Of a stretch of 32,348 bases of DNA, positions 1,991 through 32,141 are shown piece by piece. Numbering within the stretch: position 1 is the first letter of the stretch; each line of letters begins with the position of its first letter. The position numbers were made by a program, and so were the translations under genes. Under the pieces are notes generated by a model. The model saw nothing but the letters and a program-made list of their open reading frames with translations, did no database searches and was not told the DNA's origin. The DNA lies in contig JAOPWV010000086.1 of the NCBI GenBank assembly GCA_025965475.1, forward strand, positions 1-32,348, in the 5' to 3' direction. Source of the DNA: Frankiales bacterium. GTDB lineage: Bacteria > Actinomycetota > Actinomycetes > Mycobacteriales > SCTD01.

Positions 1991-3409
1991 CTACAGCGGG
2001 GGTGCCAGCTGGGCGAGGCCCTCGATGGCGGCGGCGAAGCACTCGGCCGGCGGGGTGACCAGGCCGGCACCGACCTGGCCGGTGCCCGCGACCTTGCCGG
2101 CCATGCCGGTGTTGATCTGGGGCAGGATCCCGGTCCGGACGACCTTCGTGACGTCGATGCCGGTCGGCGCTCCGCGGAACTCCAGGATCGGGATCTGGTA
2201 GGCGCGGCTCTCGGCGAGCGTGATCTCGTACATACGCCGGGTCGTGGCGAGCGCGTCCGGCACGGCCCCGCCGACGAACCGCACGATGGCCGGCGCCGCG
2301 GCCATCGAGAAGCCGCCGATGCCACCGGTCTCGGTGATGGCCGAGTCGCCGATGTCGGGATTGGCGTCGTCCGGGCCGTACGACCCGAGGAACAGCCCGT
2401 CGGCGAGCTGCGCCGGACCGGTGAACCAGGTGTCGCCGGTGCCGGCGGTCTGGATGCCGAAGTCGGTGCCGTTGCGGGCCATCGTCACGACCATCGTCGA
2501 GCCCGGGATGTCGCGGGCCGCGTCCGTGGCCAGCTTGCACGCGGGCATGTCGAGGTTCAGGAAGAAGTGGTCGTTGCCCGAGACGAAGCGCACGCACTCG
2601 GCGACCTGGGACGACGGCACGTCCAGTTCGATGAGGTCCGGCAGGATCTCGCGCAGGAACATCAGCGTGCCGGCCCGGTTGCGGTTGTGGCCCTCGTCGC
2701 CCATCTGCAGCATCTGCGCGATGATCGCCTTGATGTCGATCGCGCCGTGCTTGCGCACCGCCTGGCCCAGCAGGGGACCCACGACGTCGGACATGAAGCG
2801 CAGCCGCTCGATGACCTCGGACGAGTAGGCGCCGTACCGCAGGACCTTGCCCAGGCCCTCGTTGATCGAGCACCAGGCCCGGCCGCCGTGCTCGGTGTCC
2901 TCCAGCTCGAACATCCACATCGACGGGGTGACGACGCCCGCCATCGGGCCGACCGTCCGGTGGTGGTGGCACGGGTCGAGGGTGATCCCGTCGCCCTTCT
3001 CGAGCAGCCGTTCCGCCTCCTCCGGGGTGTCGGCCAGGCCCTCGAGCAGCATCCCGCCGATGAGCGCGCCGCGCAGCGGGCCGGAGGTCCGGTCCCACGC
3101 GATCGGCGGCCCGGCGTGGAAGAACGTGCCCTTCTCGATGCCCAGCACCTCATGGGCCGGACGTACGTCGACGAGCTGCGCGGTGGCCGACAGCAGCCGC
3201 TCGACCGCCTTCGCGTTGGCCTCGTTGCGGCGCGGGTCGGCCATGACCCGGGCGAGGGCGGTCTCGGTGCCGTCGGCCGGCGGCCGCCAGTCGACCTGTT
3301 CGACGGGTGCGGCCTGCGCGCTGAGGGCGTCGGCGAACAGGGCGGCGCCCGCGGTGACGACGCGGGGGTCGGCGGAGAGCAGACCGGAGAGGGGGGCGGT
3401 GTCGGTCAC
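1991..3409 (-). CDS. allG: AllG-like DUF1116 protein, carbamoyltransferase subunit
   Basis: A 472-residue member of the DUF1116 family (YlbE/AllG and YahG in E. coli). AllF, AllG and AllH together form oxamate carbamoyltransferase, which splits oxalurate with phosphate into oxamate and carbamoyl phosphate. Visible conserved blocks are FHAGPPI (97-103), CHHHRTVGPMAG (147-158) and Gly-rich segments near the C-terminus (TGGIGGFSMAAAPA). There are no membrane segments or signal peptide, so it is cytoplasmic. The GTG start at 3409 has GGAGG about 7 bases upstream and overlaps the allF stop by 4 bases (GTGA), so the two are probably translationally coupled. The frame stays open further upstream, but that part lies over allF and reads as low-quality Arg-rich sequence. 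In this window the natural substrate may be ureidomalonate rather than oxalurate (inference). Confidence 0.88.
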   Translation of the reverse strand: MTDTAPLSGLLSADPRVVTAGAALFADALSAQAAPVEQVDWRPPADGTETALARVMADPRRNEANAKAVERLLSATAQLVDVRPAHEVLGIEKGTFFHAGPPIAWDRTSGPLRGALIGGMLLEGLADTPEEAERLLEKGDGITLDPCHHHRTVGPMAGVVTPSMWMFELEDTEHGGRAWCSINEGLGKVLRYGAYSSEVIERLRFMSDVVGPLLGQAVRKHGAIDIKAIIAQMLQMGDEGHNRNRAGTLMFLREILPDLIELDVPSSQVAECVRFVSGNDHFFLNLDMPACKLATDAARDIPGSTMVVTMARNGTDFGIQTAGTGDTWFTGPAQLADGLFLGSYGPDDANPDIGDSAITETGGIGGFSMAAAPAIVRFVGGAVPDALATTRRMYEITLAESRAYQIPILEFRGAPTGIDVTKVVRTGILPQINTGMAGKVAGTGQVGAGLVTPPAECFAAAIEGLAQLAPPL

Positions 3410-4905
3410 GCGGTCGCCTCCTGGCGGACGAGGGAGACCGCGTGCCTGGCGGCGGCGGCGTTGGACAGGAACACGGAGGCACCGGCGTCGAGGAGGGTGG
3501 CTGCCTGCCGGTCGAGCCCCTGCGGGTCGCTGCGGGTTCCGCAGAGCGACACGACGACGGCCAGATCGCGGCCGGCGGCAGTGGCGGTGGAGCGGGCACT
3601 GCGGATGGCGGCGGCAAGTCCGGTTGCCGGGTCCTCGTGGGCGCCGTACCCGAGGACGACGTCCATCAGGACGACGCCGACGGACGCGTCGGCGGCCTCC
3701 TGGGCCAGCCGCTCCAGTCGGAGGGACGGGTCGATCATCGGGTGTGGGCGGCCCTCGGTGAGCCGGTCGTCGCCGAAGTCGATCATGACGTGGCCGCCGG
3801 CCCGCAGGTCGTCGGGCAGGGCCCACTCGGGACGCAGCGGGATGTTCGACGCGATCGGGCCGAGGGCGCTGGCGGCCAGCACCATCGCCTCGTCGCACAG
3901 CGTGCCGCCGCTGAACAGGCCGCGCAGCGCACCTGCCCGCGGTGTCTGCTCCTCGGTGGAGGGCCAGGTCGGCCAGGTGGGGACCTGGCCGTCGACGGCG
4001 CGTACGGCCTCTTCGGTGACCGCGGTCAGGTCGGGCCGACCCTGGCCGAGCAGGGCGAACTGGACCGGCGTCGTGAGCTTCTCGGCGAACGCCCGGACCT
4101 CGTCCGCGACGTCGGCCGCCGGTGGCTTGGACACGACGACGATCAGGTCGGTGCCCGGGTCCGCGTCCAGGGCGGCGAGCGCCTGCCGGGTCGAACGGCC
4201 GCCGACCGCGGAGGACAGGTCGCGCCCGCCGACGCCGAGGCAGTGGCTCACGCCGACGCCGGCGGCGTCGAGCAGGCACATGAGTTCCTGGGCGCCGGTC
4301 CCGGACGCGGCGACGAGGCCGACCCGGCCCGGGCTGACGACGTTGGCGAAACCGAGCCCGAGCCCGCCCAGCGCCGCCGTGCCGCAGTCGGGGCCCATGA
4401 CGAGCAGGTTGCGGTCGGCGGCGGCGTCCTTGAGCAGGATCTCCTGCTCCACCGGCACGTTGTCGCTGAAGATCATGACGGACAGGCCCGAGTCCAGCGC
4501 ATCCATCGCCTCGGTGAAGGCGTGCCGGCCCGGGACCGAGATGACGGCCAGGTTCGCCTCGATGCGGGCCGCGGCGGTGCGGGTCGTCCGCGCGGGGGCC
4601 TCGTCGCCGAAGCCGCCCGAGCCGGGCCGCTGAGCGGAGAGGGCGACCAGCGCCGCCTCCATCGCGCGGACGGCGGCGTCCACCGCCGCCTCGTCGTCGG
4701 CGCGCAGGGCGATCAGCAGGTCGTTCGGGCCGGCGTCGCCCGGACCCGTCAGGCCCATCCCCGCGAGCAGCTCCAGGTTCAGCTCGGTGGCCATCGCCAC
4801 GAGCGCCACCTGTACGCCGGGGGAGTCCTGCACTGCCCGGCTCACCTGCATGAGGCTCACCGAGTCGCGGTAGGCGCCCCGTCGGACCTCGACGTGGTCG
4901 GTCAC
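3406..4905 (-). CDS. allF: AllF/FdrA-like acyl-CoA synthetase-fold carbamoyltransferase subunit
   Basis: A 499-residue FdrA-family protein, related in fold to succinyl-CoA synthetase but serving as a subunit of the AllFGH oxamate carbamoyltransferase. Visible signatures are GPDCGTA (171-177), GLGFANVVSPG (183-193), ASGTGAQE (200-207) and GVGGRDL (224-230), all in the order typical of FdrA. The second half (about 240-490) is the ligase-like domain. The GTG start at 4905 is preceded by AAGGAG at a 6-base gap. That site lies inside the last codons of allH, and the stop and start overlap by 4 bases. Its length is slightly below the E. coli protein. It was historically named as a suppressor of dominant-negative FtsH mutations; the metabolic role is the one that fits here, given the DUF1116, DUF2877 and carbamate kinase genes in the same window. 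Confidence 0.9.
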   Translation of the reverse strand: MTDHVEVRRGAYRDSVSLMQVSRAVQDSPGVQVALVAMATELNLELLAGMGLTGPGDAGPNDLLIALRADDEAAVDAAVRAMEAALVALSAQRPGSGGFGDEAPARTTRTAAARIEANLAVISVPGRHAFTEAMDALDSGLSVMIFSDNVPVEQEILLKDAAADRNLLVMGPDCGTAALGGLGLGFANVVSPGRVGLVAASGTGAQELMCLLDAAGVGVSHCLGVGGRDLSSAVGGRSTRQALAALDADPGTDLIVVVSKPPAADVADEVRAFAEKLTTPVQFALLGQGRPDLTAVTEEAVRAVDGQVPTWPTWPSTEEQTPRAGALRGLFSGGTLCDEAMVLAASALGPIASNIPLRPEWALPDDLRAGGHVMIDFGDDRLTEGRPHPMIDPSLRLERLAQEAADASVGVVLMDVVLGYGAHEDPATGLAAAIRSARSTATAAGRDLAVVVSLCGTRSDPQGLDRQAATLLDAGASVFLSNAAAARHAVSLVRQEATA

Positions 4906-5849
4906 CTGTGCTCCTTAGGGGCGGGGTTGCCGCCGATCGTGTGCCGGCCCAGCGAACTGTGGGCCATCAGTGCGTGGGCGCCCGCGAGCAGGCCGCGGGC
5001 GGTGTCGTGGCCGGACGAGTGCCCGACGGAGAGCAGTTCCCGCAGAGCGGGGGCCGGTGCGCGGATCCCGGCGAGGGCCTCGGTGACGGCCATGACCGGG
5101 TCCGCCGCCTCCCCGCGTCCGGCGTGCGCGAGCAGCGCGGCGGACAGCGCGGTGGTCCGGGTGGTGGCGCGCCCGGCGACGTACCGCCCGAGCCGGGCCG
5201 CCTGTGCGGTCACGACATGGGTCCCGGGCAGCCCGGCCAGCTGGTCGCAGGCGACGAGCACGCCGGCGAGGACGTCGTCGCCGGCCGGGGTCAGGCCGCG
5301 GCCGAGACCGAGCAGCGCGTCCGCGGCGGCCTCGGTGGCCGGGGCGTCCAGGGCGATGAGCGCGTCCCGCAGCCGGCCGGCGGCACTGGCCACCGGGGCG
5401 TCGAGCCGGAGGGGCTGGGCGTCGAGCAGGCGCTCCAGTTCGTGCACGGCCGGTGCCGTGCGCTCCGGCTCGAGCGGGACGTGGATCCGGCGGGGGCTCC
5501 AGGAGCGCACCGCGCGGTACCGCACCGCGCCGATGTGCAGGCAGTCCTCGCCGGTCCAGGCTGCGTCGCCGGCCGAGTGAGGAGCGAAGGGTGCCTGCGT
5601 GCTGGCCGCGGCGATCACCAGGGCGTTGGGCATGCGTACGCCGTCGCGGGCCACCACGGCCGCCACCGTGGCCTCGCGACCGCCGCCCGAGAGGGCGACG
5701 TACACCGCGGTGGGGAACACGGCCAGGACCTCGCCGGCGGCCCCGCTGTCGAGCAGCCCGCGCAACGCGATGCTGGCCGCCGCCGGATGCTCAGCGGCTC
5801 CCCGGACACCCGGGCGCGGCGGCGCTGCGGGTTCGATGAGCGTCGGCAT
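4902..5849 (-). CDS. allH: AllH-like DUF2877 protein, carbamoyltransferase subunit
   Basis: A 315-residue DUF2877 protein (YlbF/AllH in E. coli), the third component of the AllFGH carbamoyltransferase. The diagnostic motif GLGRGLTPAGDD sits at residues 181-192, with the C-terminal SVGHSSGHDTARGLLAGAHA block also present. It is the first gene of the minus-strand allH-allF-allG operon. The ATG at 5849 has no Shine-Dalgarno sequence. Instead a TAGCGT element lies 6 bases upstream of the ATG (5861-5856, minus strand), which is the geometry of a leaderless actinobacterial mRNA. The first 20 residues are Pro/Ala-rich and may be a poorly conserved extension. Divergent from a PucR regulator only 35 bases away, so it is probably controlled by it. 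Confidence 0.85.
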   Translation of the reverse strand: MPTLIEPAAPPRPGVRGAAEHPAAASIALRGLLDSGAAGEVLAVFPTAVYVALSGGGREATVAAVVARDGVRMPNALVIAAASTQAPFAPHSAGDAAWTGEDCLHIGAVRYRAVRSWSPRRIHVPLEPERTAPAVHELERLLDAQPLRLDAPVASAAGRLRDALIALDAPATEAAADALLGLGRGLTPAGDDVLAGVLVACDQLAGLPGTHVVTAQAARLGRYVAGRATTRTTALSAALLAHAGRGEAADPVMAVTEALAGIRAPAPALRELLSVGHSSGHDTARGLLAGAHALMAHSSLGRHTIGGNPAPKEHR

Positions 5850-5884: not shown

Positions 5885-7645
5885 ATGGGCAAACTTGCCA
5901 ACGATCCGGCCGTTCCTTCGGCGGAGTTGCCTGTGCAACGTACGACGGAGGCGCAGGCCTTCCCGGACGGGATCGGGGCGGCGCCGGAGTCGTCCGGCGG
6001 CCGCAGCACGGGGACCTTGACGTACGGACTGCCGCTCGGTGAGGTGCTCGGGGCCTCCACCCTGCGCGGCGCGCGGGTGCTTGCCGGCGCAGGCGGGCTC
6101 GGCCGGGTCGTGCAGCGGCTGAACGTCATGGAGGTGCCCGACATCCTGCCGTGGGTCAAGCCGCACGAGCTGCTGTTGACCACGGGCTACCCGCTGCGCA
6201 ACACCCCCGGCGACCTGTCCGGCCTGGTGCTGGAGCTCGACCGGCGCGGGCTCGCCGGTCTGGCCATCAAGCTCGGCCGGTACCTCGACGTGCTGCCGCA
6301 GGAGATGCTCGACGAGGCGGACCGGCTGGGTTTCCCGATCGTCCAGCTGCCCGCGGGCGTCGGCTTCGACGACATCCTCAACCAGGTGCTCACGGATGTG
6401 CTCAACCGGCAGGCCGCCCTGCTGGCCAGGTCGGAGGAGGTCCACCGGGTCCTGGTCCAGATCGTGCTGGCCGGCGGCGGCCTGCAGGAGGTCACCGACG
6501 AACTCGTCGGCATCCTCGGCGGGGTCGTGCTGGCCACGACGCCGGACGGCCGCGTGCTCGCCGTGTCCGGCGAGCCCGAGGCGGTGGCGGGCGTGCTCGA
6601 AGGGGAGCACTTCGACGAGAGCGGCCGGTTCCGGGTGGAGCGCTCGCCCGAGGGGATCCGGACGGACCCGGCCGGCAGCCACGCCGTGGTGCCGATCGTC
6701 GCCGGTGGCGTGCATCACGGCAGGATCGCCGCCTTCTCGACCGACCTGATGGATGCCAGCGACGTGCATGCCCTGGAACGGGCCGCCACCGTGGCCGCGC
6801 TCGTCGTGACCAAGGCGCTCGCCGTCAGCGCCGTGGAGAGCAAGTACCAGGGCGACTTCATGCACGACCTGATCAACGGCCGGGCCGGCAGCGTCGAGCA
6901 CACCGTGCCGCACAGCGCCTCCCTCGGCTGGGACATCGACCGCCCGCTGATCGTCGTGGTGGCAGAGATCGACGGCGCCGAGCCGGCCGCCACGCCGTCG
7001 TCGCTGCAGGCGGTGCGGCCGGTGCAGGACCGGTTCGCCGCGGCCTGGTCGTCGGTCGTGCACGGCCGGGACGGCAAGGCCGCGGTGGTCGGGTTCGCCC
7101 AGGAGGTGGTCGCGCTCATCGGCGTCCCCGCCCACGGGGACGTCGACCGGTTCGTGCGTGATGTGGTGAGCCACGTCTCCGGTGACGGTGGTGGTGGTCG
7201 GCGCTCGTTCTCCACCGGGGTCAGCCGGGTGATCGCGTCGCCGCAGGCGCTGCCCGAGGCCTACGAGCAGGCCCGCAAGGCCGTGCACGTCGGCCGGCAG
7301 ATGCACGGCGCCGGCGCGGTCGCGCACTTCGACGGGCTCGGCGTCTTCCGGCTCCTCAGCCTCATCCCCGACAGCACCGAGCTGCAACAGTTCGTCAACG
7401 AGACGCTCGGGGAGCTGGCGGCGCGGGACGACGCCACGAACATCGACCTGCGCCGCACGCTGCAGGTGCTGCTCGAGACCAACCTGAACGTCGCGGAGAC
7501 GGCACGCAGCCTGCATTTCCACTACAACACGCTGCGGTACCGGATCGGCAAGCTGGAGCGGATGCTCGGCCCGTTCACCACCGATCCCACCCTCCGGCTG
7601 AACCTGGCCCTGGCCCTCCAGGTGATCCAGATGCGGGGCATCTGA
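5885..7645 (+). CDS. PucR-family transcriptional regulator (first copy)
   Basis: A 586-residue regulator. From about residue 50 it matches the N-terminal PucR purine-catabolism domain (LPLGEVLGASTLRGARVL, then NVMEVPDILPWVKPHELLLTTG). A central linker/GGDEF-like region follows. The C-terminus is a PucR-type helix-turn-helix at about 530-562 (NVAETARSLHFHYNTLRYRIGKLE), typically an activator of nucleobase or ureide catabolic operons. The first 45 residues are not part of the usual domain, so the start is uncertain: ATG 5885 (leaderless, TACCGT 6 bases upstream) or TTG 6017, immediately before the domain. Divergent from allHFG and upstream of the uracil permease, it is the likely regulator of both. 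Its ligand is unknown. Confidence 0.88.
   Translation: MGKLANDPAVPSAELPVQRTTEAQAFPDGIGAAPESSGGRSTGTLTYGLPLGEVLGASTLRGARVLAGAGGLGRVVQRLNVMEVPDILPWVKPHELLLTTGYPLRNTPGDLSGLVLELDRRGLAGLAIKLGRYLDVLPQEMLDEADRLGFPIVQLPAGVGFDDILNQVLTDVLNRQAALLARSEEVHRVLVQIVLAGGGLQEVTDELVGILGGVVLATTPDGRVLAVSGEPEAVAGVLEGEHFDESGRFRVERSPEGIRTDPAGSHAVVPIVAGGVHHGRIAAFSTDLMDASDVHALERAATVAALVVTKALAVSAVESKYQGDFMHDLINGRAGSVEHTVPHSASLGWDIDRPLIVVVAEIDGAEPAATPSSLQAVRPVQDRFAAAWSSVVHGRDGKAAVVGFAQEVVALIGVPAHGDVDRFVRDVVSHVSGDGGGGRRSFSTGVSRVIASPQALPEAYEQARKAVHVGRQMHGAGAVAHFDGLGVFRLLSLIPDSTELQQFVNETLGELAARDDATNIDLRRTLQVLLETNLNVAETARSLHFHYNTLRYRIGKLERMLGPFTTDPTLRLNLALALQVIQMRGI
5888..5899. promoter_or_regulatory. Small palindrome at the start of the first PucR gene
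   Basis: GGCAA-AC-TTGCC forms a perfect 5+2+5 inverted repeat directly after the ATG at 5885. A second GTTGC-N4-GCAAC repeat follows at 5926-5939. Both lie in the non-conserved N-terminal extension, so they may be operator DNA for autoregulation rather than chance coding sequence. Short palindromes also occur by chance in GC-rich DNA. Confidence 0.25.
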
Positions 7646-7861: not shown

Positions 7862-9325
7862 ATGTCGCTTGGTCTCGGTTGGAAGCTTCACGGAGACGGG
7901 AAGACCCCGCCTCCCGGCGAGGTGGTGCGTCCTGACGAGCGGCTCTCGTGGGGTCGCACCGCCGGTCTCGGCGCGCAGCACATCGTGGCGATGTTCGGCG
8001 CCACCTTCGTCTTCCCGCTGATCATGGGCCTCAGCCCGCAGCTCGCGATCATGATGAGCGGTATCGCGACCGTCCTGTTCCTGCTGATGGTGAAGGGGAA
8101 GGTCCCGAGCTACCTCGGCACCAGCGCGTCCTTCGTCGGCGGTGTCGCGGCGATCCGCGCGCAGGGCGGCACCAGCGCTCAGGTCACCGGCGCCATCCTC
8201 GTCGCCGCCGTCGTGCTGGCCATCGTCGGTGTGATCATCCACTTCGCCGGCTCCCGGGTGATCTACGCCGTGCTCCCGCCGGCCGTCACCGGCGCCGTCG
8301 TCATGCTCATCGGGTTCAACCTCGCCCCCGTCGTCGCCAACGTCTACTGGCCGCAGGACCAGTGGGTCGCGCTGATCGTGATGTTCGCCGTCATCTGCAT
8401 GAGCCTCGGCCTGCGTGGCTTCCTGGGCCGCATCTCGATCTTCCTCGGCCTCATCTTCGGCTACCTCCTGTCGTGGATCTTCGACGGGATCTTCGGCCAC
8501 ATCAGCTCGTTCAGCCCGGGCGTTGGCAAGATCACCGAGCACGCGCGGGTCGACTGGGCGGGGGTCAAGGCGGCCGACTGGCTCGGCTTCCCGCCGCACA
8601 CCGGCACCCTGGGTCCCGACGGCCATCCCCTGGTCGGCTGGCACACCCCCGACATCAAGCTCGCCTTCGTGCTGCTGGTGCTGCCCGCCGTCATCGCCCT
8701 GGTCGCCGAGAACACCGGCCACGTCAAGGCGGTCGCCGAGATGACCGGGACCAACCTCGACGACGTCATGGGCCGCGCGATCGCCGCCGACGGCATCGCC
8801 ACCGTGGTCACCAGCGCCGTCGGTGGTTCGCCGACCACGACCTACGCCGAGAACATCGGGGTCATGGCCGCGACCCGCGTCTACTCCACGGCGGCGTATT
8901 TCGTCGCCGCGGTCGTCGCGATCCTGTTCGGCCTGTCGCCGAAGTTCGGCGCCCTGATCTCGGCCACCCCGGGCGGTGTGCTCGGCGGCATCACCGTCGT
9001 CCTGTACGGCATGATCGGCCTGCTCGGGGCGAAGATCTGGAAGGAGAACGGGGTCGACTTCGGTAACCCCGTGAACCTCGTCCCGGTCGCCGCCGGCATC
9101 ATCATCGCCATCGGCGGGACGGCGCTGAAGATCACCGACAGCTTCGAGCTCAGCGGTATCGCGCTCGGCACGATCGTCACGATCGTCGGCTGGCACCTCG
9201 CCCGCCTGCTGGCTCCGCCGCACCTCAGCGAGGCAGCGGCCGCTGAGGGTCCGGTCGTCACGACGCCGGGCGTCTACAGGGAGCCCAGCCCGTACGACGA
9301 GGACGTCAAGCCGGTCGTCCGCTAG
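7862..9325 (+). CDS. Uracil permease, NCS2/UraA type
   Basis: A 487-residue NCS2 (nucleobase:cation symporter 2) membrane protein with about 14 hydrophobic segments. The substrate-site helices are recognisable: VAENTGHVKA (281-290), and GGSPTTTYAENIGVMAATRV (321-340) resembling the UraA GGxPxTTYxENIGVMAxTRVYS block. Glu283 and Glu330 plausibly correspond to the two uracil-binding glutamates of E. coli UraA. The AENIGVMA form favours uracil or related pyrimidines over the xanthine/urate subgroup. The ATG at 7862 is preceded by GGAGGGG. The C-terminal 30 residues are a hydrophilic cytoplasmic tail. The gene stands alone between its own promoter region and terminator, next to PucR and the Mo hydroxylase, as expected for nucleobase uptake. 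Confidence 0.88.
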   Translation: MSLGLGWKLHGDGKTPPPGEVVRPDERLSWGRTAGLGAQHIVAMFGATFVFPLIMGLSPQLAIMMSGIATVLFLLMVKGKVPSYLGTSASFVGGVAAIRAQGGTSAQVTGAILVAAVVLAIVGVIIHFAGSRVIYAVLPPAVTGAVVMLIGFNLAPVVANVYWPQDQWVALIVMFAVICMSLGLRGFLGRISIFLGLIFGYLLSWIFDGIFGHISSFSPGVGKITEHARVDWAGVKAADWLGFPPHTGTLGPDGHPLVGWHTPDIKLAFVLLVLPAVIALVAENTGHVKAVAEMTGTNLDDVMGRAIAADGIATVVTSAVGGSPTTTYAENIGVMAATRVYSTAAYFVAAVVAILFGLSPKFGALISATPGGVLGGITVVLYGMIGLLGAKIWKENGVDFGNPVNLVPVAAGIIIAIGGTALKITDSFELSGIALGTIVTIVGWHLARLLAPPHLSEAAAAEGPVVTTPGVYREPSPYDEDVKPVVR

Positions 9326-9493: not shown

Positions 9494-10377
9494 ATGAAGC
9501 CGGCACCGTTCACGTACCACGCGCCGACGACGCTGGCCGAGGCTCTCGACGCGCTGGACCGGGTCGGCGAGGACGGCAAGGTCCTGGCCGGCGGGCAGAG
9601 CCTGATCCCGATGCTGAACATGCGCCTCGCCTCGCCCGCGCACCTGGTCGACATCAACGGGGTGGCCGGCCTCGGCACCGTCGACGTCGACGCGACCGGT
9701 GTCCGCATCGGAGCGCTCGCCCGGCACGCGCAGGTGGCCGGCCACGACGCGGCGCACTCCGTCGTACCGCTGCTCCGGCAGGCCCTGCAGCTCGTCGCCC
9801 ACCCGGTGATCCGCAACCGCGGGACGACGGTCGGCAGCCTCGCGCACGCCGACCCGTCCGGCGAGATGACGGCCGTGCTCAGCCTGCTCGGCGGGAGCAT
9901 GGACCTGGCCCGCAAGGGGGCCGCCCGCACGGTCCCCGCCGCCGAGTTCTTCGTGGGCCCGCTGGAGTCCTGCCTGGAGCCGGGCGAGATGGCCGTCTCG
10001 GCCTGGTTCCCGGTCCCGCCGCCGCGGACGGGTACGACGTTCCGCGAGGTGGCCCGCCGGCACGGCGACTACGCCATGTGCGGGGTCGCCGCCGCCGTCA
10101 CCCTCGACGCCGACCAGCGGGTGCTCAGCGCCCGCACGTCGTACATCTCGATGACGGCCACGCCCCTCGTCCTCGACCTGACCGAGGCCGTCGCCGGCAA
10201 GCCCTTCGACGCCGCCGACTGGGCTGCCGCCGGGCAGCTGTCGGCCGATCAGCTCGACCCCGAGCCCGACATCCACGCCACCGCGGACTACCGGCGCCAT
10301 CTCGGCGTCGTACTCACCCGCCAGGCGCTCACCGACGCCGCGACCGTTGCGGCAGCTCAGCCTCAGGGAGCAACACG

Positions 10378-10381
<4 letters not shown>
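9494..10381 (+). CDS. Molybdenum hydroxylase FAD-binding subunit (CoxM/XdhB type)
   Basis: A 295-residue medium subunit of a xanthine oxidase-family hydroxylase. It carries the FAD and passes electrons from the iron-sulphur subunit. The two FAD motifs are visible: AGGQSLIPMLNMRL (32-45) and TVGSLAHADPSGE (112-124). The N-terminal KPAPFTYHAPTTLAEALDAL is typical of the family. It is the first gene of a 4-base-overlapping trio with the small and large subunits. A purine-rich stretch (GGCAGGA, 9480-9486) precedes the ATG. The 118 bases upstream, after the permease terminator, must contain the operon promoter, but I see no convincing -35/-10 pair. With cytosine deaminase and barbiturase nearby, the likely reaction is hydroxylation of uracil to barbiturate (and thymine to 5-methylbarbiturate). 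The substrate is inferred. Confidence 0.88.
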
Positions 10382-10898
<517 letters not shown>

Positions 10899-10902
<4 letters not shown>

Positions 10903-20928: not shown

Positions 20929-20991
20929 ACCAGATCCTCCCCCCGCGCCCCGGAGCAACCGGCGAGCCGGGGGGTCGCAGAAGGAGTGCTC

Positions 20992-24769: not shown

Positions 24770-25662
24770 TCGACATCCTCGCGCTGATCGGCGCGATGCT
24801 CGTGGCGGCGACCCCGCTGATCTACGCGGCCACCGGCGAGGTGCTCACCGAGCGGGCCGGCATCCTCAACCTCGGCATCGAGGGCACGATGTACGCCGGT
24901 GCGTTCTCGGGCTTCCTCGTCGCGGCGAAGACCGGGTCGCCGTGGCTCGGCCTGGCGGCCGCGCTGGTCCTGGGCGTCGTGGCAGGTGCCCTGATGGGCC
25001 TGCTCGTCGTCACCCTCGGCGTCAACCAGCACGTCGCCGGCATCGGCACCACGCTGCTGCTCATCGGGGCCAGCGAGTTCACCAACCGCCTGCTGTACGG
25101 CGGCGGCGCCCTGGTCCAGATCGACAAGTTCGGGCTGCTGTTCCCCGACGTACCCGTGCTCGGTCAGTACGTCCTGACCTACGTCGCGCTGATCGTCGTC
25201 GTCCCGTTCGTGTGGTGGCTGCTGCGCGCCACCGGCTTCGGGCTGCGCGTCCGGGCCGTCGGGGAGAACCCCGAGGCGGCCGACGCGGCGGGCATCAGCG
25301 TGGCCCGGACCCGGTACGCCGCGCTCATGGGCGGCGGGGCCCTGATGGCGGCCGGCGGTGCCTTCCTCACGCTCGCCGTCGTCGGCACCTTCACGCTGAA
25401 CATCAGCAACGGCCGCGGCTGGGTGTGCATCGCCCTGGTCATCTTCGCCCGCTGGCGGGTCTGGCCCGCCGTCCTCGGTGCCCTGCTGTTCGCCGGGGTC
25501 GACGCGCTGCAGCTGCAGCTGGTCATCACGCCCGCGTTCTCCGGCATCCCGCGCGAGCTGATGCTCGCCCTGCCGTACCTCGTCGTCATCGCCGCGCTGG
25601 CCGCGTCCGGCCGCGGCCTCGTCTACCCCGGCGCCTACCTCAAGCCCTACCGCCGTGCCTGA
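24766..25662 (+). CDS. ABC importer permease 2 (BMP/nucleoside type)
   Basis: A 298-residue permease with the YufQ-type block VLTERAGILNLGIEGTMYAGA near residues 25-45 and about eight hydrophobic segments. I chose GTG 24766 because it overlaps the first permease stop as GTGA and has AGGAG (24754-24758) 7 bases ahead. Longer in-frame starts would run over the upstream gene. The C-terminus (RGLVYPGAYLKPYRRA) is typical. It completes the importer. The cytosine deaminase gene follows after 43 bases, so the importer and deaminase are probably cotranscribed. Confidence 0.9.
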   Translation: MIDILALIGAMLVAATPLIYAATGEVLTERAGILNLGIEGTMYAGAFSGFLVAAKTGSPWLGLAAALVLGVVAGALMGLLVVTLGVNQHVAGIGTTLLLIGASEFTNRLLYGGGALVQIDKFGLLFPDVPVLGQYVLTYVALIVVVPFVWWLLRATGFGLRVRAVGENPEAADAAGISVARTRYAALMGGGALMAAGGAFLTLAVVGTFTLNISNGRGWVCIALVIFARWRVWPAVLGALLFAGVDALQLQLVITPAFSGIPRELMLALPYLVVIAALAASGRGLVYPGAYLKPYRRA

Positions 25663-25705
25663 CCTCCACCCCCTTACGGCCACTCGTGGCACAACCGGAG
25701 TTGAT

Positions 25706-26158
25706 ATGAGCGACGACAAGACCTTCCTGGACCTCGCCATCGAGCAGGCCCGCATCGGCCTGGCCGAAGGCGGGATCCCGATCGGGGCGGCCCTGGTCGT
25801 CGACGGCGAGGTCCTCGCGGTCGGCCGCAACCGGCGGGTCCAGTTGGGCAGCGCGATCCGGCACGGCGAGACCGACTGCCTCGAGAACGCCGGCCGCCTG
25901 CCGGCCAGCGTCTACGCGCGGGCCACGATGTACACGACGCTGTCGCCGTGCCCGATGTGCACCGGCGCGATCCTGCTGTACGGCATCCCGCGGGTCGTCA
26001 TGGGCGAGAACGCCACCTTCGTGGGCGGCGAGGACACGCTGCGCGCCGGCGGGGTCGAGCTGGTCAACCTCGACTCGGCGGAGTGCCGCGACCTCATGGC
26101 CGGCTTCATCGCGGACCGGCCGTCGCTGTGGAACGAGGACATCGGCGTCGAGGAATGA
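25706..26158 (+). CDS. Cytosine deaminase, yeast Fcy1 type
   Basis: A 150-residue zinc deaminase of the CDA fold. It resembles yeast Fcy1 along its length rather than E. coli CodA (an unrelated amidohydrolase). Zinc ligands and catalytic residue are visible: His53 and Glu55 (RHGETDCLENAGRL), then Cys82 and Cys85 (TTLSPCPMCTGAILLYGIPR). The C-terminal FIADRPSLWNEDIG also matches the yeast enzyme's end. The reaction is cytosine to uracil plus ammonia, feeding the uracil-oxidising branch. The ATG at 25706 has GGAG at a 5-base gap. The stop overlaps the next gene as ATGA. Action on another aminopyrimidine or on creatinine-like compounds is less likely but possible. Confidence 0.9.
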   Translation: MSDDKTFLDLAIEQARIGLAEGGIPIGAALVVDGEVLAVGRNRRVQLGSAIRHGETDCLENAGRLPASVYARATMYTTLSPCPMCTGAILLYGIPRVVMGENATFVGGEDTLRAGGVELVNLDSAECRDLMAGFIADRPSLWNEDIGVEE

Positions 26159-27048
26159 CCTCGGCATCGGGCAGGGTCCGACCGACCTCACCGACCTCAT
26201 CGCCGGCCGGGCCACTCGTGGTCGTCGCGGGTGCGGCCGGCAAGACCGGGCTGGCCGTGACCCGGGCAGCGACGGCGGCCGGGCTGCGGGTCCGCGGGCT
26301 CGTCCACCGTCCGGAGCAGCGCGACGTGGTCCTCGCAGCCGGCGCCGTCGAGGCGGTCGTGACCGACCTGCGCGACGAGGCGTCGTTGACGGCGGCGTAC
26401 GGCGGGGCCGATGCGGTGTACCACCTGGCGCCGAACGTCGACGCCGAGGAGGTACCGCTGGGCGCCCTGGCCGTCCACGTGGCGCGGCGTACCGGCGTGC
26501 GACGGTTCGTCCTTCACTCGGTCATGCACCCGTACGTCCCGACGATGCCGCACCACGTGCGCAAGGCCGAGGTCGAGCACCTCGTGCGGACCAGCGGACT
26601 GCTGTGGACGGTGCTGCAACCCGCGGCCTACGTGCAGAACCTGGTCCCCTCCGACCGGCTCGCCGTGCCGTACTCGGTGGACGCGCCGTTCACCCTCGTG
26701 GACCTGCTCGACGTGGCGGCCGCCGCGGCGCGGGTCCTCACCGAGGACGAGCACCGCTATGCGACCTACGAGCTCGCCGGCCCGACGGTGACGAGCGTGG
26801 CCGACGTCGCCCGGCTGCTGACGGAGCGGACCGGTCGCGAGGTCGCCGCGGTGCGCCTGGACCCGGACGCGTGGCAGGCCGGCCCCGGCGCGGCCCTCCC
26901 GGTCGACGCGGCCCGGGCGCTGCGCGCGATGTTCGACCACTACGACCGGCACGGGCTGGTGGGTGGCTGCCGGCCGCTCGCCGACCTGCTCGGCCGGACG
27001 CCGAACGACGTGCGCGCCGTGATCGAGCGCGAGGTCCCCGCCTCCTGA
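26155..27048 (+). CDS. NmrA-like NAD(P)-binding protein (atypical SDR)
   Basis: A 297-residue atypical short-chain dehydrogenase of the NmrA/NAD(P)H-binding group. The dinucleotide motif is VVVAGAAGKTGLAV near residues 21-34. VTDLRDEASLTAAYGGADAVYHLAPN and the FVLHSVMHPY strand follow. The usual catalytic YxxxK is not evident (HHVRKAEVEHLV occurs where it would be), as in many NmrA members that sense redox state or reduce quinones. ATG 26155 overlaps the deaminase stop, so it is cotranscribed with pyrimidine genes. No step of the proposed pathway needs it. It might sense NAD(P) levels or act on a side product. Confidence 0.8.
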   Translation: MTSASGRVRPTSPTSSPAGPLVVVAGAAGKTGLAVTRAATAAGLRVRGLVHRPEQRDVVLAAGAVEAVVTDLRDEASLTAAYGGADAVYHLAPNVDAEEVPLGALAVHVARRTGVRRFVLHSVMHPYVPTMPHHVRKAEVEHLVRTSGLLWTVLQPAAYVQNLVPSDRLAVPYSVDAPFTLVDLLDVAAAAARVLTEDEHRYATYELAGPTVTSVADVARLLTERTGREVAAVRLDPDAWQAGPGAALPVDAARALRAMFDHYDRHGLVGGCRPLADLLGRTPNDVRAVIEREVPAS

Positions 27049-27172: not shown

Positions 27173-28360
27173 GTGGCCGAGAAGCACTCGAACGGCCCGC
27201 TCGCGGGCATCGTCGTCGTCGACCTGTCGCGGGCGCTCGCCGGCCCGCACGCGGCGATGATGCTCGGCGACCTCGGGGCCCGCGTGATCAAGGTGGAGAC
27301 CCCCGGCACCGGCGACGACACGCGCGGCTGGGGGCCGCCGTTCGTCGGCCCGGAGGACGCGCAGGAGTCGACGTACTTCCTGTCCTGCAACCGCAACAAG
27401 GAGTCGATCACCCTCGACCTCAAGTCCGACGACGGTCGCGAGACCCTGACCCGGCTGGTGCGCAACGCGGACGTCCTCGTCGAGAACTTCCGGACCGGCG
27501 TCCTCGACCGGCTCGGCTTCTCGATGGAGCAGCTGCAGGAGCTGAACCCGCGGCTGGTCGTGCTGTCGATCACCGGGTTCGGGCACGACGGCCCGCAGGG
27601 CGGCCGGCCCGGCTACGACCAGATCGCGCAGGGCGAGGCCGGGCTGATGAGCCTGACCGGGCCGGGGCCGGACGACCCGACCCGCATCGGTGTCCCGATC
27701 GGCGACCTGCTCGCCGGGATGTACGGCGCGTATGGCGTCGCGGCCGCCCTCCACGAGCGGGACCGGACGGGCCGGGGCAAGGTCGTCCGCACCTCGCTGC
27801 TCGCGTCGATCGTAGGGGTCCACGCCTTCCAGGGGACCCGCTACACGGTGACCGGCGAGGTGCCGCGCGCGCAGGGCAACCACCACCCGTCGCTGGCGCC
27901 GTACGGCTCGTTCCGCTGCAGCGACGCCATCGTGCAGGTGGCCGTCGGCAGCGAGAGCCTGTGGCGTGCGTTCTCCCCGCTCGTCGGGCTCGACCCGGCG
28001 GACCCCCGGTTCTCGGTCAACCGGGACCGGGTGCAGCGCCGCGAGGAGCTCATCGACGAGATCAACGCCGCCTTCGCCGAGCGCAAGGTGGACGACGTGC
28101 TCGCCCAGCTCGACGCGGCCGGCGTACCGGCCGGTGAGGTGCGCACCCTGGACCGGGTCTACGAGTGGGACCAGACCCGTTCGCAGGGCCTGCTCGTCGA
28201 CGTCGAGCACGCGACCCTGGGCCGGGTCACGCTGCCCGGGCCGCCGCTGCGTTTCGACGGCGTCGACACCTCCGTCCACCAGGCGCCGCCGACCCTCGGC
28301 CAGCACAACGCGTCCGTACGCCGCTGGCTCGACGAGCAGGACGCGGAGGGGACCGCGTGA
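27173..28360 (+). CDS. CaiB/BaiF family (class III) CoA-transferase, candidate malonate CoA-transferase
   Basis: A 395-residue class III CoA-transferase. Visible family features are LAGIVVVDLSRALAGPHAAMMLGDLGARVIKVE at the start, LVENFRTGVLDRLG, and the likely catalytic Asp178 in GVPIGDLLAGMYG. The enzyme moves CoA from a donor thioester to a carboxylate through an aspartyl-CoA anhydride. The GTG at 27173 has GGAGGA (27161-27166) at a 6-base gap. It overlaps the carboxyltransferase gene by 4 bases (GTGA), so the two probably act in sequence. Malonate is the expected end product of barbiturate cleavage, so malonate to malonyl-CoA is the inferred reaction. Oxalate or another dicarboxylate is an alternative. 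Confidence 0.88.
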   Translation: MAEKHSNGPLAGIVVVDLSRALAGPHAAMMLGDLGARVIKVETPGTGDDTRGWGPPFVGPEDAQESTYFLSCNRNKESITLDLKSDDGRETLTRLVRNADVLVENFRTGVLDRLGFSMEQLQELNPRLVVLSITGFGHDGPQGGRPGYDQIAQGEAGLMSLTGPGPDDPTRIGVPIGDLLAGMYGAYGVAAALHERDRTGRGKVVRTSLLASIVGVHAFQGTRYTVTGEVPRAQGNHHPSLAPYGSFRCSDAIVQVAVGSESLWRAFSPLVGLDPADPRFSVNRDRVQRREELIDEINAAFAERKVDDVLAQLDAAGVPAGEVRTLDRVYEWDQTRSQGLLVDVEHATLGRVTLPGPPLRFDGVDTSVHQAPPTLGQHNASVRRWLDEQDAEGTA

Positions 28361-29859
28361 CCCGCGTCGACCGTCCGGGTGCTCTCGAGCTGCTGGACCG
28401 GGTCCTCGACCCGGGCAGCTGGAAGTCCTGGGACGAGCCACCGTCCGATCCGTCGCCGATCTCGCCCGAGTACGCGGCCGAGCTGGCCGCGGCGCGCGAG
28501 AAGACCGGTCTCGACGAGTCGCTGATCACCGGCAGCGGGACGATCCACGGCCGCCGGATCGCCGTCGTCGCCTGCGAGTTCGGCTTCCTGGCCGGCTCGA
28601 TCGGCGTGGCCGCCGCCGAGCGGCTGGTGCGGGCCGTCGAGCGGGCGACCGCGGAGGGGCTGCCGCTCGTCGCGGCGCCGACGTCCGGCGGCACCCGGAT
28701 GCAGGAGGGCACCGTCGCCTTCATGCAGATGGTCAAGATCTCGGCCGCCGTCGCGCTGCACCGCCAGGCGAAGTTGCCGTACCTCGTCTACCTGCGCCAC
28801 CCGACGACCGGCGGCGTGTTCGCGTCCTGGGGCTCGACCGGGCACATCACGGCGGCCGAGCCGGGCGCGCTGGTCGGGTTCCTGGGGCCACGCGTGTACG
28901 AGGCGCTGTACGGCGAGCCCTTCCCGGCCGGCGTCCAGGTCTCGGAGAACCTGCTCGAGCACGGGCTCATCGACGCCGTCGTCGCACCGGAGGACCTGCG
29001 CCAGATCGCCGCCGACGCGCTCGCCGTGCTGATGGCCCCGCGGGAAGGACTGCCGGAGGTGGCGCCGCTGCCCAAGGAGGAGCTGGCCGACATCCCCGCG
29101 TGGGAGTCCATCCAGCGCTCGCGGCGCGACGGGCGCCCGACGGTCCGCGGCCTGCTGCGGTCGGCCGCCAACACCGTCACCCCGCTCCAGGGCACCGGTG
29201 AGGGGGAGACCGAGCCCGGGCTGCTGCTCGCGCTGGCCAAGTTCGGCGGCGCGCCCTGCGTCGTACTCGGTCAGGACCGCCGGCGCCAGCAGTCCCAGGG
29301 CCCGCTCGGCCCGGCCGGCTTGCGCGAGGCGCGCCGCGGCATGCGGCTGGCCGCCGAGCTGAACCTGCCGCTCGTCACCGTGATCGACACGGCCGGGGCC
29401 GCCCTGTCGAAGGAGGCGGAGGAGGGCGGGCTCGCCGGCGAGATCGCCCGCTGCCTCGCCGAGCTCGTCGTGCTGCCCGCCCCGACGGTCTGCCTGCTGC
29501 TCGGCGAGGGCGCCGGCGGCGGGGCGCTGGCCCTGCTGCCGGCCGACCGGGTGCTGTGCGCGCAGCACTCCTGGCTGTCCCCGCTGCCGCCCGAGGGCGC
29601 GAGCGCGATCATCTACCGCGACACCGAGCACGCCGCCGAGGTGGCGGCCGCCCAGGGCGTGCGCTCGCTGGACCTGCTGCGCAACGGCCTGGTGGACCGC
29701 GTGGTCGCCGAGCGCCCCGACGCCGCCGACGAACCGGCCGCGTTCCTCGCCCGGCTCGGCCAGGTGCTCGAGTACGAGCTGGTCGAGCTGCTGCACCGGG
29801 ACCCCGCCGAGCGGCTGGCCGCCCGGCTGCGGCGCTACCGCACGCTCGGGACCGGATGA
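28357..29859 (+). CDS. Fused beta-alpha carboxyltransferase, candidate biotin-independent malonyl-CoA decarboxylase
   Basis: A 500-residue protein with an AccD-like half (about 1-240) joined to an AccA-like half (about 260-500). The beta half has SGGTRMQEG (110-118), HPTTGGVFASWGS and the SENLLEHGLIDAVV block. The alpha half has VIDTAGA, GEGAGGGALAL (383-393) and LPPEGASAIIYRD. The AccD zinc finger is absent. No biotin carboxylase or biotin carrier gene is nearby, which argues against fatty-acid carboxylase duty. The MdcD/MdcE subunits of malonate decarboxylase use the same fold without biotin transfer. Coupled by overlap to the CoA-transferase, it is best read as malonyl-CoA to acetyl-CoA plus CO2. 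The family is certain; the reaction is inferred. Confidence 0.85.
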   Translation: MTRVDRPGALELLDRVLDPGSWKSWDEPPSDPSPISPEYAAELAAAREKTGLDESLITGSGTIHGRRIAVVACEFGFLAGSIGVAAAERLVRAVERATAEGLPLVAAPTSGGTRMQEGTVAFMQMVKISAAVALHRQAKLPYLVYLRHPTTGGVFASWGSTGHITAAEPGALVGFLGPRVYEALYGEPFPAGVQVSENLLEHGLIDAVVAPEDLRQIAADALAVLMAPREGLPEVAPLPKEELADIPAWESIQRSRRDGRPTVRGLLRSAANTVTPLQGTGEGETEPGLLLALAKFGGAPCVVLGQDRRRQQSQGPLGPAGLREARRGMRLAAELNLPLVTVIDTAGAALSKEAEEGGLAGEIARCLAELVVLPAPTVCLLLGEGAGGGALALLPADRVLCAQHSWLSPLPPEGASAIIYRDTEHAAEVAAAQGVRSLDLLRNGLVDRVVAERPDAADEPAAFLARLGQVLEYELVELLHRDPAERLAARLRRYRTLGTG

Positions 29860-29870: not shown

Positions 29871-29946
29871 TGGCGGAAGCCGCCAAAGCAAGGCCGTTCG
29901 TTCGGCATCCCATGCCCGTGGTCGGCGGGCCTCGCGCCCGTACGCT
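29871..29946 (+). promoter_or_regulatory. Candidate internal promoter region ahead of the carbamate kinase
   Basis: A perfect TGGCGG-AAG-CCGCCA inverted repeat (29871-29885) lies 12 bases after the carboxyltransferase stop. GGCAT-CCC-ATGCC follows near 29904-29916, and a TACGCT -10-like hexamer at 29941-29946. The 145-base gap is the longest in this part of the cluster, so the kinase and barbiturase genes may have their own control. The first repeat could instead weaken read-through. Confidence 0.3.
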
Positions 29947-30004
29947 GCGGGAGACCGTCCGGCTCCCGCCGCCGGGTCACCCCCTGTCGCGAGGAGCAGC
30001 CGAC

Positions 30005-30949
30005 GTGCGTGCGTTGATCGCCCTGGGCGGCAACGCCATGACCTCCGCCGACGGACAGGCCACCCCGCAGGCGCAGGAAGGCGCAATCGCGGCGGCCATG
30101 GAACGCGTCGCCGACCTGGTGGCCGCCGGCGTCGATGTCGTCCTGACGCACGGCAACGGGCCCCAGGTCGGCAACCTGCTCGTGAAGAACGAGCTGGCCG
30201 CGCACGTGGTCCCGCCCGTACCGCTCGACTGGTGCGGCGCGCAGACCCAGGCCACCGTCGGCTTCACCGTGCTGGACACCCTGGAGGCCAGCCTGTCCCG
30301 GCGCGGCATCGACCGGCGGGTCGCGGCGGTCGTGACCCGCACGCTGGTCGACCTCGACGATCCCGGCTTCAGCCGTCCGACCAAGCCGGTCGGGCGCTTC
30401 CTGCCGCGCGAGCAGGCCGAGCCGCTCATCGCGCACGGCGAGACGTGGGAGGACCGCGGCGAGAAGGGCTGGCGCCGGGTGGTCGCCTCCCCGCAGCCGG
30501 TGGAGGTGCTGGACGCGCCGGCGGTCGACGCGCTGATCGGGGCCGGCTTCCTCGTCGTCGCCGCGGGCGGCGGGGGCATCCCGGTGGCCCGCCGCGAGGA
30601 CGGCTCGCTGCACGGCGTCGAGTGCGTCCTCGACAAGGACCTCACGGCGGCGCTGCTGGCCCGGACCGTCGGCGCCGACACCCTGGTGATCGCCACCGAC
30701 GTGGACAACGCGATCATCGGCTACGGCACGCCGGACGCCCGTCCGCTCGGCCGGGTCACGACCAAGCAGATGCGTGCGTACGCCGACGAGGGCCACTTCG
30801 CCAGCGGCAGCATGGGCCCGAAGGTCGAGGCCGCGGTGCGCTTCGTCGAGGCCGGCGGCCGGCGCGCCGTGATCACGTCCCTCGACCGCATCACCGAGGC
30901 CGTCACCGGCCCCGACGGCGCCGGGACCGTGATCCAGAACCAGACCTGA
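30005..30949 (+). CDS. Carbamate kinase
   Basis: A 314-residue amino-acid-kinase-fold carbamate kinase. Family blocks are visible in order: ALGGNAM at the N-terminus, [76 protein letters not shown] and [15 protein letters not shown]. It makes ATP from carbamoyl phosphate and ADP, releasing ammonia and CO2. I chose GTG 30005, with GAGGAG (29991-29996) 8 bases ahead and the first strand following at once. An in-frame ATG at 29912 would add 31 unconserved residues. No arginine deiminase or ornithine carbamoyltransferase is present, so the carbamoyl phosphate source in this window is AllFGH, as with E. coli AllK. Confidence 0.92.
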
Positions 30950-31022
30950 GCCGCCGGCGCGCCGGGGGCCGATCGTCCAGACCGTCAACATCGTCAGCCA
31001 GTCCGTACGAGAGGTGGAACCA

Positions 31023-32141
31023 GTGCCAGAGACCCCGCAGCCCATCGAGGTCCGGAAGGTCCCGCTGCTGAACGTGAGCGACGCCTCCGGGCTCGCCCAG
31101 CTCATCGACGACGGGATCCTCGACGCCGACCGCGTCGTGGCGGTCATCGGCAAGACCGAGGGCAACGGCGGCGTGAACGACTACACCCGCATCCTCGCCG
31201 ACCGCGCGTTCCGCGAGGTGCTGGTGGCCAAGGGCAGCCGGCCCATGGACGAGGTCAAGCAGATCCCGATCGTCTGGTCGGGCGGCACCGACGGGATCAT
31301 CTCGCCCCACGCCACCATCTTCGCGACGGTGCCGGCCGAGTCGGCCCCGAAGTCGGACGAGCCGCGCCTGTCGGTCGGCTTCGCGATGAGCGAGAAGATC
31401 CTCCCCGAGGACATCGGCCGCGTGAAGATGATCGAGACCGTCGCCGCCGGCGTGAAGGTCGCGATGGAGCGGGCCGGGATCACCGACCCGGCCGACGTGC
31501 ACTACGTCCAGACCAAGACCCCGCTGCTCACCATCGACACCATCCGGGACGCGAAGAGCCGCGGCAAGAAGGTGTGGACCGAGCACACCCACGAGTCGAT
31601 GGACCTGTCCAACGCCACCACCGCGCTCGGCATCGCCGTCGCGCTCGGCGAGATCGAGATGCCGACCGACGAGCAGGTGATGGAGGACCTGTCGCTGTTC
31701 TCCGCCGTCGCGTCCTGCTCGTCCGGCGTCGAGCTGGACCAGGCGCAGATCGTCGTGGTCGGCAACGTCCGCGGCATCGGCGGCCGCTACCGCATCGGCC
31801 ACTCGGTCATGAAGGACGCCCTCGACCAGGACGGCATCTGGGAGGCGATCAAGGCGGCCGGCCTCGAGCTGCCCGACCGCCCGCACCACACCGACCTCGA
31901 CGGCCGGCTGGTCAACGTGTTCCTCAAGTGCGAGGCCGACCCCTCCGGCGGCGTCCGGGGCCGGCGCAACGCGATGCTCGACGACTCCGACGTGCACTGG
32001 CACCGCCAGATCAAGTCGGCCGTCGGCGGCGTCACCGCTGCGGTCACCGGCGACCCGGCCGTCTTCGTGTCGGTCGCCGCAGTGCACCAGGGCCCGTCCG
32101 GTGGCGGCCCCGTGTCCGCCATCGTCGACATGGGCGCCTGA
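31023..32141 (+). CDS. Barbiturase / cyanuric acid amidohydrolase family ring-opening hydrolase
   Basis: A 372-residue protein of the small AtzD/TrzD/barbiturase family, built of three pseudo-repeats with a Lys-Ser pair in each. Candidates here are Lys44 (IGKTEGNG) with Ser86 (WSGGTDG), Lys165 (QTKTPLL) with Ser233/234 (SCSSGVE), and Lys331 (RQIKSAVGG) with Ser359 (QGPSGGGP). The reaction would be barbiturate plus water to ureidomalonate. I chose GTG 31023 because GAGAGG (31009-31014) lies 8 bases upstream; GTG 31014 is possible. Family assignment is firm. Barbiturase rather than cyanuric acid hydrolase is inferred from the cytosine deaminase, Mo hydroxylase and UraA-like genes. It is the last gene before a strong terminator. 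Confidence 0.88.

Follow-up and report, generated by a model that had tools for sequence, protein, structure and literature searches.

A pyrimidine degradation cluster of a Frankiales bacterium with a predicted carbamoyl-phosphate ending

Introduction

A contig of a Frankiales bacterium (JAOPWV010000086.1) carries a barbiturase gene together with genes for the three subunits of AllFGH and for a carbamate kinase, which raises the question of how barbiturate degradation ends in this organism. We refer to this whole stretch of 32,348 nucleotides as the window; it is a complete contig (C119) of the genome (G000; assembly of 3.89 Mb in 215 contigs, 98% completeness), with a G+C content of 72.5%, and because it ends just past barbiturase, the cluster may extend beyond that end. 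In the hydrolytic version of oxidative pyrimidine degradation, barbiturase is followed by ureidomalonase, which gives malonate and urea (PMC3758960). An earlier note on this DNA had proposed that AllFGH and carbamate kinase replace the hydrolytic release of urea. Based on comparisons among related genomes, we conclude that the cluster probably encodes an oxidative route for pyrimidines that ends in carbamoyl phosphate, through AllFGH of a particular clade and carbamate kinase.

In the proposed pathway, the cytosine deaminase would convert cytosine to uracil, the molybdenum (Mo) hydroxylase would convert uracil to barbiturate, and barbiturase would open the barbiturate ring to give ureidomalonate. 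The distinct-clade AllFGH would then split ureidomalonate with phosphate into malonamate and carbamoyl phosphate, by analogy with Escherichia coli AllFGH acting on oxalurate, which is one carbon shorter. From carbamoyl phosphate and ADP, carbamate kinase would make ATP and carbamate, ending as ATP, CO2, and ammonia. Malonamate would be hydrolyzed to malonate and ammonia by the nitrilase-type amidase, malonate would be converted to malonyl-CoA by the CoA-transferase, and an AccD/AccA-like carboxyltransferase is the candidate for the last step, from malonyl-CoA to acetyl-CoA. We infer all of these reactions, and close homology is the basis for the two assigned to barbiturase and cytosine deaminase. 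The carbamoyl-phosphate ending, well supported by comparative genomics, would make this a new version of an established pathway and would involve a single enzyme activity predicted to be new, a ureidomalonate transcarbamoylase; we found no description of such an ending for the barbiturase route in the literature searched, which most subscription journals lie outside. If correct, it would account for a conserved and widespread cluster in which single genes have been named piecemeal (as CO dehydrogenase, FdrA, or DUF1116), it would shift the balance of nitrogen and energy when many actinobacteria use uracil, and it would make the textbook pathway a special case. The candidate pathway genes, identified by codon-position gene calling and family profile scans, are as follows.

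1991-3409, minus strand: AllG (DUF1116), candidate subunit of the predicted ureidomalonate transcarbamoylase (PF06545, 323-327 bits)
3406-4905, minus strand: AllF (FdrA) subunit (PF00549, 129.6 bits; NF004760, 424.1 bits, just below the cut-off of 433)
4902-5849, minus strand: AllH (DUF2877) subunit (PF11392, 79.5 bits, above the cut-off of 25)
9494-10381, plus strand: FAD subunit of the Mo hydroxylase, candidate uracil dehydrogenase (PF00941, PF03450)
10378-10902, plus strand: 2Fe-2S subunit of the Mo hydroxylase (best of 11 FeS-subunit models NF041020, 198 bits, below cut-off)
10899-13358, plus strand: molybdenum subunit of the Mo hydroxylase (PF02738, PF20256, PF01315; NF040766, "CODH_aero_grp5"; sequence PYRGAGR)
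14059-15024, plus strand: nitrilase-superfamily amidase, candidate malonamate amidase (PF00795, 169.2 bits)
25655-26158, plus strand: yeast-type cytosine deaminase, predicted to convert cytosine to uracil (PF00383)
27173-28360, plus strand: class III CoA-transferase, candidate malonate CoA-transferase (PF02515, 420 bits)
28357-29859, plus strand: fused AccD/AccA-like carboxyltransferase, candidate for the malonyl-CoA decarboxylating step (PF01039, PF03255)
29912-30949, plus strand: carbamate kinase (NF009007, 325 bits, above the cut-off of 266)
31014-32141, plus strand: barbiturase (AtzD/barbiturase family; PF09663, 489 bits; TIGR02714, 576 bits against a cut-off of 153)

Identity of the barbiturase

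Judged by its residues, the product of 31014-32141 is a barbiturase. It is 81% identical over 368 residues to the solved barbiturase 5hwe. Peat et al. describe five specificity positions (AtzD 195, 321, 325, 345, and 346) at which barbiturases carry Asn, His, Lys, Val, and Ser/Ala, and cyanuric acid hydrolases carry R, T, R, G, and G (PMC3758960). The window protein has N, H, K, V, and A at these positions, the barbiturase pattern, and cyanuric acid hydrolase was rejected as its identity on this signature. All 63 barbiturase rows that we examined, a few of which duplicate one gene, carry N-H-K-V-[A/S]; they span 35 of the 77 survey genomes that remain after removal of five low-scoring ones, and among these 77, G023 has a short fragment only and G209 a split gene. 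The pattern was missing from seven low-scoring rows, six of them from the five low-scoring genomes, which have no AllG, and one a second copy in G313. Elsewhere in the survey, G093 (locus L251) has a pair of AtzD-family genes separated by about 7 kb. The first of them shows the signature of cyanuric acid hydrolases (RTR, GG), and about 5 kb from it lies a gene for urease alpha.

These results bear on the possibility that the cluster degrades a different heterocycle, its barbiturase homolog having another substrate. NCBIfam names the Mo subunit an aerobic CO dehydrogenase, and uracil as its substrate is a prediction. Against such a reading stand the barbiturase signature and the identity to 5hwe, the yeast-type cytosine deaminase, and the uracil-type permease; in addition, pyrimidines reportedly serve Rhodococcus erythropolis CCM2595 (= JCM3132) as a carbon source (PMC3961730), and another strain of that species carries homologs of the upstream genes. 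We consider a different heterocycle very unlikely.

Co-occurrence and conservation of the cluster

The co-occurrence of these genes, which the earlier note had proposed as a check, was assessed in a survey sample of 394 genomes of the class and was strongly borne out. Of these genomes, 82 have the AtzD/barbiturase family, 88 have AllG (a count that includes G051, with a divergent copy only at 202 bits, and G020, with a partial copy), and 75, G051 among them, have both (Fisher p 3e-58, kinship ignored). By genus, in a hand count from the genome lists, 35 have both, 6 the barbiturase family only, 8 AllG only, and 89 neither. Seven genomes have the barbiturase family but not AllG. Five of them are low-scoring and do not carry the barbiturase signature; the other two, G206 (100% complete) and G014 (72% complete), are true exceptions. 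The two genes lie on the same contig within 60 kb in 40 of the 75 genomes and on different contigs in 27.

Cluster anatomy was compared in 19 clusters visible from AllG through barbiturase, the window counted. AllG, AllF, the three Mo hydroxylase subunits, CoxG, and barbiturase are present in all 19 and HyuA/HyuB in 18, with none within about 50 kb in G390. Carbamate kinase lies within the cluster in 15 and elsewhere in the genome for G354, G315, and G241; 10 of the clusters have the CoA-transferase and 7 have the carboxyltransferase. The translated search missed AllH, a divergent protein, in some of the 19. The gene set is a conserved neighborhood and no chance grouping, with its order largely kept in other genomes of the class.

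A second sample was made up of 80 named loci around barbiturase, each extending at most 10 kb to either side of the gene. Of these, 71 contain carbamate kinase; it is missing from those of five Rhodococcus genomes and from L168, L174, L189, and L190. The window's cytosine deaminase has no counterpart in the 80 loci, and the ATPase and permeases of its importer recur in 2, so both are local additions in the window. A homolog of a cytosine-deaminase-like amidohydrolase of G019 occurs in 2 of the 80.

AllFGH clade and carbamate kinase

All three AllFGH subunits are present in the window, together with carbamate kinase. Their identities to the E. coli proteins are 45% over 409 amino acids (AllG), 38% (AllF), and 35% over 115 amino acids (AllH), and the carbamate kinase, which scores 338.9 bits against TIGR00746 (under the cut-off of 358), is 41% identical to E. 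coli AllK. The three subunits and the carbamate kinase are what the window has in common with the oxamate branch of allantoin degradation in E. coli, where AllK provides a precedent for the carbamate kinase step (PMC9843812) and AllFGH has been assayed in reverse, starting from oxamate and carbamoyl phosphate (PMC11326118). In contrast to that branch, the window has no allantoin genes, its AllG belongs to another clade, and its predicted substrate is one carbon longer. The allFGHK genes found beside biuret and triuret genes in nitrifiers (PMC12625717) likewise place AllFGH and carbamate kinase outside a known allantoin gene set; those genes are tied to biuret hydrolases, in genomes for which the authors report no atzD, whereas the set in the window is tied to barbiturase.

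In a tree of 69 AllG rows, which covers part of the AllG genes found and in which some rows repeat a genome, 50 rows including that of the window form one clade (support 100/95), and all of them come from genomes with barbiturase. Outside this clade fall E. coli AllG, paralogs from the window's own genome (contigs C85 and C143), second copies in three other barbiturase genomes, the AllG of Rhodococcus jostii, and AllG from genomes without barbiturase; several of these outside rows, including that of E. coli, are long branches, and the order among them is unsure. Thirty-two positions are common to nearly all AllG rows (at most one exception per set), suggesting that the chemistry may be kept, while R245, W165, R425, L341, A108, D58, and P453 mark the barbiturase-linked clade. 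R245, which comes after the shared G237-D238-H241-R243 motif, is a possible site for accommodating a longer substrate.

Carbamate kinase lies in the locus in 30 of 32 tree rows with this AllG and in none of 8 without it (Fisher 6e-7, kinship ignored). These 40 rows are those in which both states are known, with short-locus rows left out and with G200, G315, and G241, whose clusters have AllFGH and no carbamate kinase, not included, and for 6 of the 40 the clade was assigned from 65-68% identity to the window AllG and not from the tree.

Contrast with Rhodococcus and direction of change

The ureidomalonase of the hydrolytic route was reportedly found in R. erythropolis JCM3132; the genome that we compared is that of another strain, NBRC 15567. 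This strain shares with the window homologs of barbiturase, UraA, Mo hydroxylase, CoxG, HyuA, HyuB, the NmrA-like protein (41%, coming after HyuB in R. erythropolis), CoA-transferase, and carboxyltransferase, and the other four Rhodococcus loci hold parts of that set. Since HyuAB and NmrA are kept in R. erythropolis without AllG of the window clade, they belong to the shared upstream part and not to AllFGH. AllG of the window clade is absent from all five Rhodococcus genomes, R. jostii having one divergent copy outside the clade, and carbamate kinase is absent from all five fetched loci, with four of the five genomes having no match at a carbamate-kinase score.

Directly 3' of barbiturase, all five Rhodococcus loci carry an amidase, which in R. 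erythropolis passes the NF005686 cut-off (703 bits) and in the others is 78-97% identical to the R. erythropolis one. The classical pattern is an amidase beside barbiturase, together with urease and with no carbamate kinase in the cluster, whereas the window has no such amidase; an NF005686-type amidase beside barbiturase is a pattern seen in this analysis and not one defined in print. The best match to the R. erythropolis amidase in the window genome scores 172.5 bits and lies on another contig, and the contig edge past barbiturase may hide a gene. The Rhodococcus contrast supplies a candidate gene for ureidomalonase.

We also found no AllG in G206, in Haloechinothrix (L190), or in the metagenome-assembled genome of L174. 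In a barbiturase tree, lineages without clade AllG are scattered among those with it, with five changes, at least four of which are forced by supported branches. This tree left out four non-barbiturase rows and the duplicate window row, kept three non-barbiturase rows, and left G051 ungrouped; its root is far away, and two of the AllG-less lineages are incomplete or metagenome assemblies. Repeated loss is the simplest reading of such scatter, and the hydrolytic ending may therefore be the derived one. A wider reading would make AllFGH a broader acylurea phosphorolase family and would have the actinobacterial barbiturase pathway end ancestrally in malonamate and carbamoyl phosphate, with ATP recovered and no urea made, the urea route being a derived minority version produced by several separate losses of AllFGH and carbamate kinase; we give this reading an even chance of being right.

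Urea use and the amidase slot

The window genome, 98% complete, has no urease alpha and no urea carboxylase above cut-off, so urea would be hard for this organism to use. Among the 75 genomes with both barbiturase family and AllG, 47 are without urease (ten weak urease rows, with E above 1e-20, being counted as no urease), and 44 of these, the window's included, are also without an over-cut-off urea carboxylase; by those two routes, they would draw no nitrogen from urea. Urease is present in all five Rhodococcus genomes, and G206 has two copies, one of them on the barbiturase contig.

We use amidase slot for the position between CoxG and HyuA. In the 19 clusters, it holds a window-type nitrilase in 7, an amidase-signature enzyme of type f32 in 5, and one of type f59 in 2; the remaining 5 have an f32-type enzyme elsewhere in the genome. 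In G030, the distant f32-type copy sits with a CoA-transferase and a carboxyltransferase, which fits a malonate-making amidase, and malonamidase E2 provides a precedent for malonamate hydrolysis by an amidase-signature enzyme (PMC8393822). In the fetched loci, every slot nitrilase seen is accompanied by AllFGH or carbamate kinase, no genome-wide nitrilase search having been made. When the R. erythropolis amidase was searched against 38 genomes, with 295 bits or more defining the f32 type, such an enzyme was found in 8 of 9 true-barbiturase genomes without clade AllG (not in G014) and in 12 of 24 with it, and eight nitrilase genomes (including the window's) and the two f59 genomes gave weaker matches only, below 200 bits. 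A non-f32 amidase occurs in 10 of 22 AllFGH genomes versus 0 of 8 without AllFGH (p 0.029, kinship ignored), a comparison that left out G028 and G005 (slot not seen), G014 (which counts against), and five non-barbiturase genomes.

Alternatively, the slot amidase could be the ureidomalonase in all these genomes, producing urea and malonate, with AllFGH and carbamate kinase serving another ureido compound under the same regulon. Consistent with this, the NF005686 cut-off is exceeded both by an amidase of the f32 type (488 bits) and by that of R. erythropolis, the two groups being about 40% identical, and some candidate amidase is found in nearly all barbiturase genomes examined. However, we see nothing else in the conserved core that would supply an acylurea, the resulting urea would be of no use to 44 of the 75 genomes by the two routes tested, eight AllFGH genomes have the slot nitrilase and no f32-type amidase, and clade AllG and the cluster carbamate kinase are missing together. 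We regard this alternative as unlikely and retain the carbamoyl-phosphate ending as the probable one.

Several observations weigh against that ending. Its weakest point is that the amidase of f32 genomes could still make urea, by hydrolyzing ureidomalonate directly: the amidase-signature enzyme of many AllFGH clusters is in the same NF005686 subfamily as the R. erythropolis amidase, so a ureidomalonase may coexist with AllFGH, and because malonamate and ureidomalonate contain the same malonyl-amide bond, one enzyme lineage could serve either route. The link between AllG and carbamate kinase comprises only three kinship-independent pairs (median p 0.25, not significant), and G200 has AllFGH with no genome match at the carbamate-kinase score. 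Eight of the 75 genomes have barbiturase and AllG on one contig but 65 kb to 1.74 Mb apart, and G014 has barbiturase without AllG, urease, or the Rhodococcus-type amidase, in an assembly that is 72% complete. The absence of urease found no support as an association, since urease, present in 28 of the 75 genomes versus 125 of the 299 others, is no rarer among them, and Haloechinothrix (G399) has no AllG and yet also no urease. Finally, HyuAB and NmrA have no explanation in the scheme. The replacement of urea release proposed by the earlier note draws its support from co-occurrence, from the Rhodococcus contrast, and from the lack of a route for urea use in the window's genome, all of it comparative genomics; the note's further statement that urea is never made goes beyond that support.

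Remaining genes and pathway steps

Gene calling and family scans recovered all the gene classes that the earlier note had listed, as well as four genes missing from it (CoxG, HyuA, HyuB, and the NmrA-like protein). The features of the window outside the candidate pathway are as follows.

596-1951: MFS transporter
5885-7645, plus strand: PucR-type regulator, divergent from allHFG and present in most related clusters (PF07905, PF13556)
7862-9325, plus strand: NCS2 uracil/xanthine-type permease, UraA/RutG-like (PF00860, 240.8 bits; TIGR03616 RutG, 336 bits, below cut-off)
13355-14011, plus strand: CoxG-like protein (PF06240, 84.3 bits)
15185-17305, plus strand: HyuA, ATP-dependent hydantoinase/oxoprolinase-type subunit (PF01968, PF05378)
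17302-19176, plus strand: HyuB subunit (PF02538, 471 bits)
19223-20863, minus strand: second PucR-type regulator (PF07905, PF13556)
20917-25662, plus strand: whole BMP-type ABC importer (PF02608, PF00005, PF02653), with binding protein at 20917-22068, ATPase at 22065-23657, and permeases at 23654-24769 and 24766-25662
26155-27048, plus strand: NmrA-like NAD(P)-binding protein (PF05368, 92 bits)

The Mo subunit scores 1537 bits (cut-off 950) against NF040766, an aerobic CO dehydrogenase by name. The active-site loop of form I CO dehydrogenase reads AYxCSFR. The window subunit reads PYRGAGR and so does not show the form I loop, despite the score. If this subunit is a uracil hydroxylase, some actinobacterial annotations of CO oxidation may be wrong. 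The cytosine deaminase scores 149.7 bits to the yeast-type 1uaq versus 62.3 bits for the best tRNA deaminase.

HyuA and HyuB (15185-19176) accompany the Mo hydroxylase in the carbamoyl-phosphate and the hydrolytic variant alike. They could act in a thymine (5-methylbarbiturate) branch or on another ring, although this is a guess. It is also conceivable that AllFGH acts not on ureidomalonate but on the carbamoyl product of HyuAB, in a hydantoin or dihydropyrimidine branch: the closest solved chain to HyuA is the N-methylhydantoinase 7hk5 (486 bits), and HyuAB accompanies AllFGH in 18 of the 19 full clusters. Yet HyuAB is retained in R. erythropolis, Haloechinothrix, and L174, all AllG-less, and G390 has AllFGH with no HyuAB nearby. 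We consider this role for AllFGH very unlikely and keep ureidomalonate as its predicted substrate.

Relatives of HyuAB hydrolyze ATP, which makes a net gain of ATP in the pathway uncertain; the earlier note had called the cluster possibly ATP-yielding. The note's statement that every step has a candidate gene was too strong: HyuAB and NmrA are without a place, and the fused carboxyltransferase falls far under the malonate decarboxylase models (TIGR03133 and TIGR03134, 44 and 35 bits versus 278 and 237), so MdcDE was rejected as its identity. It is AccD/AccA-like, with TIGR00515 at 194 bits and PRK05724 at 167 bits, both below cut-off.

Related loci

Three further loci were observed in the window's genome. 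Contig C118 (L206) carries a second set, comprising CoxG, FeS and FAD subunits of a Mo hydroxylase (78-79%), and CoxE/CoxD-like genes named by eye, along with genes for an amidase-signature enzyme, for a divergent member of the AtzD family, and for a protein resembling 8-oxoguanine deaminase (below cut-off); this set suggests a parallel pathway for another ring. On contig C85 (L204), a divergent AllG has as neighbors the large subunit of a Mo hydroxylase (56%) and an importer of the BMP-ABC type, and this set may belong with that on C118. The third AllG, on contig C143 (L205), is accompanied by genes resembling AllF and carbamate kinase (43-44%) and by two that look like lyases, the latter named by eye. 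In R. jostii (G395, contig C2, L238), the divergent AllG is followed within 1 kb by an f32-type amidase, in an 18 kb stretch free of barbiturase.

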